Source: Hyphomonadaceae bacterium (GTDB taxonomy: Bacteria; Pseudomonadota; Alphaproteobacteria; Caulobacterales; Aquidulcibacteraceae). From it: a stretch of 49,145 nucleotides of DNA. Position numbers and translations under genes: made by a program. The notes below the pieces were generated by a model. That model was not told the origin of the DNA and searched no databases. It saw only the letters and a program-made list of their open reading frames with translations. Each line of letters opens with the position of its first letter. Position 1 is the first letter of the stretch. The DNA lies in the NCBI GenBank assembly GCA_021299265.1, contig JAJTGP010000135.1, positions 1 to 49,145 on the forward strand. The letters run 5' to 3'. This document shows, one piece after another, positions 37,110-38,815 of this stretch.

Positions 37110-37289
37110 AGCGGAAAGTGATTGGTGAACCTTTAAACAGGCTACATGGGTTTTTTCAGTAAGGGCTGATCTACACTTAAGTCTTTAAGCCTTATTCCTT
37201 CACTTCTTTACGGAATATTCTTCCCGCTTAGCGAATTCGTAAGGCGATACGGCACGCCTCTGCGACTCCCGCATCTCTAAAGGCCAAGA

Positions 37290-37334
37290 ATCCACAAAAT
37301 CCCATTGAATGGGGCAGGTTCCCATGTTATCCCA
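37290..37334 (-). promoter_or_regulatory. 10-bp-phased TGGGN boxes; candidate MraZ operator
   Basis: On the minus strand TGGGA occurs at 37330-37334, 37320-37324 and 37300-37304, and a TGGAT variant at 37290-37294. The missing 37310 position holds TGGGG on the plus strand. All five sites are spaced by exactly ten bases. E. coli MraZ binds TGGGN boxes separated by five bases upstream of its own gene. The array lies 25-69 bp before the mraZ start, between the expected promoter and the gene. Confidence 0.6.
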
Positions 37335-37358
37335 AGTGCTGATTGCTTTGGGGGGCCT

Positions 37359-37841
37359 ATGCGCTTTGTTTCGACCTATGACGCGGGATTGGATGACAAG
37401 CGGCGGGTAACCCTGCCTGCTGACTTCCGCGCTGGGTTGAAGGCCGATGGCGATGCCCAAGACCATGTGCGCGTTTGGCCTGGCGATGGCGATTGGTTGG
37501 AAGGCGCGGACGATCGTTTCATCGCTGCGCTGTCGCAATCGGCTGAAGATATGGCGCAGGACGATCCTGAGGCAGCCGAGGCTGCTACTCTGGCCATTTT
37601 GGGCGGTTCGCGAAAGCTTTCTTTAGATGGGGCTGGCCGCATCGTTTTGCCAGAGACCTTTGTTTCCCACGCAGGTCTTGCAGACCGGGTCAGCTTTGTT
37701 GGTCTTGGACCTTACTTTCGGATCGCGAGCCCTGAAGTCGCCGCTCGGATGGCCCAGACCGCGCGGGATCGAACTGCGGCAACTAAAGCGAAGATTTTCG
37801 CGATGGCGCGGCGCAAAGTGCGGGAAGGGGCGCCGGAATGA
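37359..37841 (+). CDS. mraZ: Transcriptional regulator MraZ
   Basis: This 160-residue protein is MraZ, a SpoVT/AbrB-like DNA-binding regulator and first gene of the division and cell wall cluster. It holds two repeats: FVSTYDAGLDDKRRVTLPADFR and ILGGSRKLSLDGAGRIVLPETF. Each has the D-x-K/A-x-R core that contacts DNA. In E. coli it represses its own operon. I chose the ATG at 37359, right after TTGGGGGGCC; the track start at 37305 lies inside the operator boxes. Its TGA overlaps rsmH as ATGA. Confidence 0.95.
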   Translation: MRFVSTYDAGLDDKRRVTLPADFRAGLKADGDAQDHVRVWPGDGDWLEGADDRFIAALSQSAEDMAQDDPEAAEAATLAILGGSRKLSLDGAGRIVLPETFVSHAGLADRVSFVGLGPYFRIASPEVAARMAQTARDRTAATKAKIFAMARRKVREGAPE

Positions 37842-38815
37842 GCGGCCATCTGCCCGTCATGCTCGCCGAAGTGCTCGAAACGCTGTCCCCACAAGCGGGT
37901 CAAGTGATTGTCGACGGCACCTTTGGTGGGGGCGGCTATACGCGCGCCATCCTAGCCGAGGCATCGTGCCACGTCATCGGTCTTGATCGCGACCCGGATG
38001 CGGTTGTGCGCGGCAAGGCGCTTGAACAAGAAATGTCCGGCCGCTTCACCATGGTGGAGACGGAATTCTCGAAATTGGACGAGCTGCAAGGCAAGTCGGA
38101 TGCAGTCGTTCTCGATATCGGCGTGTCGTCATTCCAGATCGACCAACCCGAGCGCGGCTTTTCTTTTATGCAGGACGGGCCCTTAGACATGCGCATGGGC
38201 AAGGATGGTCCAAGTGCTGCCGACGTCGTGGCGCAATTGAGCGAGGGTGAACTCAGCACCTTGTTTCATGTTTACGGCGAGGAGCGCGAAGCGCGTCGTA
38301 TTGCACGCGCGATTGTGACCGACCGGGTAGCAACCCCCTATCTGCGTACCTCTGAATTGGCGGGTGTGGTCTCGCGCGTCATTGGTCGCAAGCACCAAGA
38401 CCATATTCATCCCGCTACCCGCGTTTTCCAAGCCTTGCGCATCTATGTGAATGACGAGATTGGCGAGCTGGAAAAGGCCCTCATCGCCGCCGAAGCTGTT
38501 TTGCCACCCGGTGGCCGTTTGGTCGTGGTGACCTTTCATTCTCTCGAAGACCGCGCCGTCAAAACCTTCTTAAATGACCGCAGTAAAGAGGCCCCGGGCT
38601 CTCGCCATGCGCCAGCTCAAGTCGGCCCTGCGGCCACCTTTAACCTGATCAATCGCAAGCCCCTAATCGCAACCGAGGCAGAAGTTGCAGCCAATCCCCG
38701 TGCACGTTCTGCAAAACTGCGCGCCGCCATCCGCACCGACGTGCCAGCCCGCGCAGGTCGGGTCACGGGCCTTGGCGGCGTTCCAACACTTGATCAGATA
38801 AAGAGGGCCGCATGA
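37838..38815 (+). CDS. rsmH: 16S rRNA m4C1402 methyltransferase RsmH
   Basis: This 325-residue enzyme N4-methylates C1402 of 16S rRNA in the decoding centre. It has the SAM-binding motif VDGTFGGGGYTRAIL, GLDRDPDAV, the LDIGVSSFQIDQPERGFSF block that marks the family, and VVTFHSLEDRAVK. It overlaps mraZ and ftsL by four bases on each side, so it is co-translated with both. Confidence 0.97.
   Translation: MSGHLPVMLAEVLETLSPQAGQVIVDGTFGGGGYTRAILAEASCHVIGLDRDPDAVVRGKALEQEMSGRFTMVETEFSKLDELQGKSDAVVLDIGVSSFQIDQPERGFSFMQDGPLDMRMGKDGPSAADVVAQLSEGELSTLFHVYGEEREARRIARAIVTDRVATPYLRTSELAGVVSRVIGRKHQDHIHPATRVFQALRIYVNDEIGELEKALIAAEAVLPPGGRLVVVTFHSLEDRAVKTFLNDRSKEAPGSRHAPAQVGPAATFNLINRKPLIATEAEVAANPRARSAKLRAAIRTDVPARAGRVTGLGGVPTLDQIKRAA

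Follow-up and report, generated by a model that had tools for sequence, protein, structure and literature searches.

MraZ is among the most conserved bacterial regulators, and the way in which its ring-shaped oligomer reads rows of short DNA boxes is only now being solved. The locus described here raises the question of whether a row of TGGGN-type words upstream of mraZ constitutes a MraZ operator, how many boxes it holds, and what is to be made of the one that faces the other way. In the window, i.e., the whole stretch of 49,145 nucleotides of alphaproteobacterial DNA that was analyzed, these words lie 10 bp apart: ATCCA at 37290, TCCCA at 37300, TGGGG at 37310, and TCCCA at both 37320 and 37330 (Table 1).

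Four MraZ-type boxes at the head of the division cluster

The boxes are real MraZ-type boxes that stand far above the chance level, and their number is four, not five. Cells 10 bp apart were counted as filled when they held NCCCA or TGGGN, and 300 dinucleotide shuffles of the window served as the null. By this count the window has a single run of four filled cells and the 300 shuffles have none; runs of three turn up in about 5% of the shuffled windows. The array lies just 5' of mraZ, the gene that opens the dcw cluster and is followed by rsmH, and box 4 ends 25 bp before the mraZ start codon. Three of the four boxes are direct TGGGN repeats with 5-bp spacers and a 10-bp period; box 2 is the exception. 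The four-box sequence is single-copy in its own genome with up to three mismatches allowed, a threshold at which no further copies indicative of a wider regulon were found. Elsewhere in the genome, TCCCA-N5-TCCCA is found just once, and the reversed control likewise gave 1+1.

Table 1. Features of the mraZ upstream region, in window coordinates (invariant columns are counted over the nine genomes of the genus).
Feature	Positions	Strand	Remarks
Candidate CcrM methylation site	37288..37292	+	GAATC (GANTC); same position in 8/9 genus members
Box 1	37300..37304	-	TCCCA (minus strand TGGGA); 5/5 columns invariant
Predicted -35	37305..37310	+	TTGAAT; in spacer 1; TTGAA 5/5 invariant
Box 2, inverted in place	37310..37314	+	TGGGG; TGGG 4/4 columns invariant (4/5 over the whole box)
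Box 3	37320..37324	-	TCCCA (minus strand TGGGA); 5/5 columns invariant
Predicted extended -10	37325..37333	+	TG 37325-37326, n, TATCCC 37328-37333; 17 bp after the -35
Box 4	37330..37334	-	TCCCA (minus strand TGGGA); overlaps the predicted -10; 4/5 columns invariant
Predicted transcription start	37340	+	about 7 bp after the -10; from promoter spacing only
Likely ribosome-binding site	37350..37355	+	GGGGGG run; from sequence
mraZ	37359..37841	+	160 aa, divergent MraZ, two DxxxR motifs
rsmH (mraW), next cluster gene	37838..38815	+	TIGR00006 291.5 bits, cut-off 154.3

The initial annotation had recognized MraZ-type boxes upstream of mraZ in an array longer than that of Escherichia coli, which is borne out by these results (four against three). 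It had counted five boxes at exact 10-bp intervals; the spacing and positions stand, but the outermost word is better taken as a GANTC site. It had also set the spacing apart from that of E. coli, a distinction that disappears on comparison, since a 10-bp period and a five-base separation are one and the same arrangement (TGGGA-5-TGGGG-5-TGGGA).

The fifth candidate, a minus-strand TGGAT at 37290, matches three of the four TGGG letters, reads CGGAT in one genus member (G002) and overlies the conserved GAATC, and for these reasons was not counted as a box. A likely CcrM/GcrA input, with a candidate methylation site, is the better reading of this word. In Caulobacter, GANTC is the CcrM methylation sequence and, near promoters, is associated with cell-cycle timing (PMC4287350). 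GcrA and a RAMA-domain protein were each found in 9/9 genus genomes, and the Caulobacter control genome has both as well. Upstream of the array, GAATC recurs at a slightly different offset in the genomes read of another Caulobacterales genus from a second family (f2/g20), and GANTC is found in some genomes of a third family. The presence of GANTC just 5' of the mraZ operator, in 8/9 members of the genus and 13/13 of the other Caulobacterales genus, suggests CcrM/GcrA timing of the division cluster.

The mraZ product, whose gene is overlapped at its end by rsmH, scores 41.1 bits against Pfam MraZ PF02381 (curated cut-off 23) and falls below the NCBIfam MraZ equivalog cut-offs (NF001477, 75.6 of 162; TIGR00242, 32.2 of 98.35). 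The TIGR00242 shortfall is not special to the window, because no sampled genome of the order or class reaches that cut-off. The DxxxR motifs D12...R16 and D90...R94 are invariant, and the AlphaFold2 model (pLDDT 92) has the MraZ fold, Foldseek matching it to 9qlg (E 2.4e-11, TM-score 0.68). The model's hits among MraZ chains from crystal and cryo-EM structures have E ~1e-11, and one of those chains was solved on a four-box promoter. The predicted subunit is built of two similar halves, residues 3-28 and 85-105, each a strand-strand-helix unit with one DxxxR. As a separate observation, MraZ was undetected in genera g2, g7 and nearly all of g14 of the same family, f1, as the present genus (G009-G012, G014, G016-G021 and most of G030-G059), many of these assemblies being near complete; there, MraZ has possibly been lost or diverged extremely.

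Conservation of the array and orientation of box 2

Nine genomes of the Aquidulcibacter/Ca. Phycosocius group (Caulobacterales), namely the window and eight others, were compared in columns anchored on box 1. All nine keep the pattern TCCCA-TTGAA-TGGGN-N5-TCCCA-TGnTA-TCCC[AT]. Besides the invariant box columns of Table 1, all 5 columns of spacer 1 (TTGAA), none of the 5 of spacer 2 and 4/5 of spacer 3 are invariant; in the inverted box 2, TGGG is constant and the fifth base is G or T. From 100 to 20 bp upstream, only 1 of 80 columns is invariant, and between the window and each genus relative the array is 83-89% identical as against 17-45% for the upstream flank. The gene 5' of the array also varies among genus members. 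Since columns of the array are invariant while its flanks and the upstream gene have diverged, the array, inverted TGGG included, is kept by selection. More broadly, an alignment of relatives' mraZ upstream regions, the check proposed by the initial annotation, finds both boxes and spacing conserved in 9/9 genus genomes and in most of the genomes read from the order and the class.

The inverted orientation of box 2 has a much narrower distribution. The boxes are nearly always NCCCA on the coding strand in the Caulobacterales and other Alphaproteobacteria genomes checked. For 86 relatives outside the genus, box 3 together with TGnTA provided an anchor; their box 2 reads CCCA in 68, retains three of four letters in 14 and fewer in 4, and is TGGG in none, as compared with 9/9 in the genus. 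A sister genus (L011) carries GCCCA-TTGAA-ACCCA-ACTTA-TCCCA-TGTTA-TCCCA, that is, the same register with a direct box 2. In 84,980 species genomes, an exact search for CCCAN5TGGGN6TCCCAN5TCCCA, which left out the window's own genome and did not match G008 (ending in CCCT), returned 14 matches. Seven lie upstream of mraZ, all in this genus; the seven others, all outside the genus, are off mraZ contigs or stretches, against about 7.5 expected by chance. In this strict scan, the inverted layout at mraZ is thus confined to the genus. The array is read as a known kind of operator, of which the lineage-specific variant with a flipped box 2 is well supported. The genus counts are not independent events, because a single inversion on the genus stem accounts for them, and any tie between the inversion and changes in MraZ consequently rests on one branch.

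The inverted member at 37310, singled out in the initial annotation, is accordingly strictly conserved within the genus. The same annotation had stressed that most boxes lie on the other strand and had seen in this a possible sign of a different MraZ oligomer. Their orientation is indeed opposite to that of E. coli, but it is the norm in nearly all Caulobacterales and Alphaproteobacteria genomes checked, and for this reason does not itself imply a new oligomer. A different arrangement of MraZ is possible for the flipped box 2 only.

Two entries among the relatives deserve mention in their own right. L077 (CAMDDL010000044.1), a metagenome-assembled genome titled Maricaulis salignorans, has an Aquidulcibacter-type mraZ and the inverted-box operator, and its organism label therefore looks wrong. 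In one alphaproteobacterial genome (G237), the sequence 5' of mraZ (L168, positions 265-279) is TGGGGcaaagTGGGG, which is oriented as in E. coli and is nearly the E. coli sequence.

The MraZ of the genus differs from that of its relatives by R15, where nearly all aligned relatives have G, by A or T at position 123, where all 21 others have W, and by a basic C-terminal tail. The idea that Arg15 (DxKRR) is tied to the inversion was considered and rejected: L040, a member of the order, has DAKRR together with direct boxes, so that Arg15 alone does not explain the inversion and no residue is proved to go with it.

A promoter-like signal among the boxes and the proposed operator

A strict sigma-70 scan found no promoter at the array, where the -10 hexamer TATCCC is poor, its last position not being T. 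Comparison of relatives nevertheless points to a promoter-like signal. TTG stands in the -35 register or up to 2 bp upstream of it in 82/86 anchored relatives, most commonly as TTGAC, and the distance from TTGA to TA is 16, 17 and 18 bp in 2, 33 and 14 cases, respectively, with no other length among the 10 to 25 tested. The extended -10 is not an independent count in this set, because TG-n-TA belonged to the anchor. When TTG plus at least two CCCA cells served as the anchor, TA was at the -10 position in 50/50 order and 35/35 class sequences. TTG is also the commonest triplet in its register, by a wide margin in the order set (41 as against 6 for the runner-up) and with 28 as against 23 in the class set. 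The box 4 cell is CCCA in 72/86 anchored relatives. Across the Alphaproteobacteria, the array is thus interleaved with a promoter-like signal: TTGAC stands in spacer 1, and an extended -10, TGnTAT, follows after 17-18 bp and extends into box 4. We found no description of this class-wide layout in the open-access papers to which our search was limited. Four class members (L105, L110, L112 and L136) have TACCA at box 4, which gives a better -10 (TATACC) and loses the box; a trade-off between promoter strength and MraZ binding is a possible explanation. Closer to the gene, TTGGGGG (37349-37355) just 5' of the mraZ start is kept in 8/9 genus members. In Caulobacter, mraZ mRNA is on the list of putative CcnA targets, CcnA being an ncRNA, and a GGGG motif is present in many of these targets (PMC8959179).

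We consider it probable that the array is an autoregulatory MraZ operator on the gene's own promoter, with a genus-specific flipped box 2 that MraZ likely still contacts. MraZ binding, promoter activity and repression at the array are all deduced here from sequence. In this model, MraZ would control its own division and cell wall cluster through the array, and four 5-bp boxes, one per 10 bp, would present MraZ with four contact sites along the same side of the helix. Boxes 1 and 2 would bracket the predicted -35 and boxes 3 and 4 the extended -10, whereas the E. coli boxes follow the -10. Because these contacts would cover the region from the predicted -35 to the -10, bound MraZ would directly block RNA polymerase. 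The case for autorepression draws both on the position of the boxes and on the repression known in E. coli. On the genus stem, the second box would have been inverted where it stood, and selection would have retained it since. That a box could be read in either direction is plausible since the MraZ subunit has two similar DxxxR halves, and we see about even chances that MraZ contacts the flipped box 2 in reversed orientation. More tentatively, the operator may be of mixed orientation, one MraZ subunit binding box 2 with its half-sites swapped, and Arg15, Trp123Ala and the basic C-terminal tail may accompany this switch.

The conserved TGGG may also serve something other than MraZ. Boxes 1, 3 and 4 would then be used by MraZ and box 2 left unread, its sequence being kept for a second factor on the palindrome CCCATTGAATGGG (37301-37313) or through an effect on the promoter spacer, an account that is possible but, in our judgment, somewhat doubtful. 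It draws on CCCATTGAATGGG, which forms a perfect palindrome centered on a single base and is invariant in 9/9 genus genomes, and on the decay of box 2 to three or fewer of its four letters in 18/86 relatives. Box 1 is present in 12 of these 18 and in 25 of the other 68 (Fisher p 0.03, uncorrected for relatedness), and an array of boxes 1, 3 and 4 therefore seems workable. Against such disuse, TGGG sits exactly in the cell and frame of the box as the reverse complement of NCCCA, and its fifth base is free to be G or T, which is what a box still in use would show. The inverted pair could also be taken for an RNA or terminator hairpin acting on antisense transcription instead of a protein site, and a terminator scan does report a weak terminator-like hairpin on the minus strand (37313-37301). 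Its stem has only five pairs, its T-rich tail is interrupted in relatives (ATTATGTGG), Rfam gives no match, and a hairpin would account neither for boxes 3 and 4 nor for the 10-bp register, all of which makes this explanation very improbable.

The sign of the regulation could differ from repression as well, given that MraZ of mycoplasmas is reported as an activator (PMC7761207); activation through these boxes nonetheless seems unlikely, their position over the predicted -35 to -10 and not upstream of it favoring occlusion. Chance spacing of short words is an explanation of negligible weight: although a single TGGG pair at the array spacing is expected about 2.75 times per window, the row of four cells is missing from every shuffle, is conserved throughout the genus between diverged flanks, and recurs across the class.

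Returning to the proposed autoregulatory MraZ operator, the class-wide interleaving of its boxes with the predicted -35 and -10 provides a testable repression mechanism for Alphaproteobacteria, unlike that of E. coli. If the mixed-orientation reading of box 2 were true, a pseudo-symmetric MraZ subunit could bind a box either way, and a natural operator with one box flipped and kept is a ready-made test of the interchangeability of the MraZ halves.

Comparison with known MraZ sites

Among the closest known systems is the E. coli mraZ operator, with which the array shares TGGGN boxes, 5-bp spacers, a 10-bp period and a place just upstream of mraZ. The E. coli boxes, TGGGA-AATTG-TGGGG-CAAAG-TGGGA, follow TAAACT on the coding strand. 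They are three, all on that strand and after the -10, whereas the array described here has four boxes on the other strand, placed among the -35 and -10, with box 2 inverted. For the M. genitalium four-box promoter, we know of no flipped box. Mycoplasma genitalium MraZ on this promoter (PDB 9sz7, a cryo-EM structure, and 9r4j) resembles the present case in its MraZ fold and its four boxes.

As reported in PMC7761207, E. coli MraZ represses its cluster from a repeated site, and Burkholderia cenocepacia MraZ binds a fragment upstream of mraZ in gel shift. The B. cenocepacia site also has four repeats with a 10-bp period (a 7-nt repeat and a 3-nt spacer); it is reported to lie downstream of the -10 and over the transcription start, and the excerpt mentions no inverted repeat (PMC7761207). 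In Mollicutes, the motif is AAAGTG[T/G] in direct repeats (PMC8475190), in contrast to TGGGN with a flipped box 2. Finally, alphaproteobacterial mraZ promoters that lack the inversion, such as L011, L129 and L147, have the NCCCA cells of the window, with TTG(AC) again in spacer 1 and the extended -10 again in spacer 3; they differ from it at box 2, where they have NCCCA and the window TGGGN.
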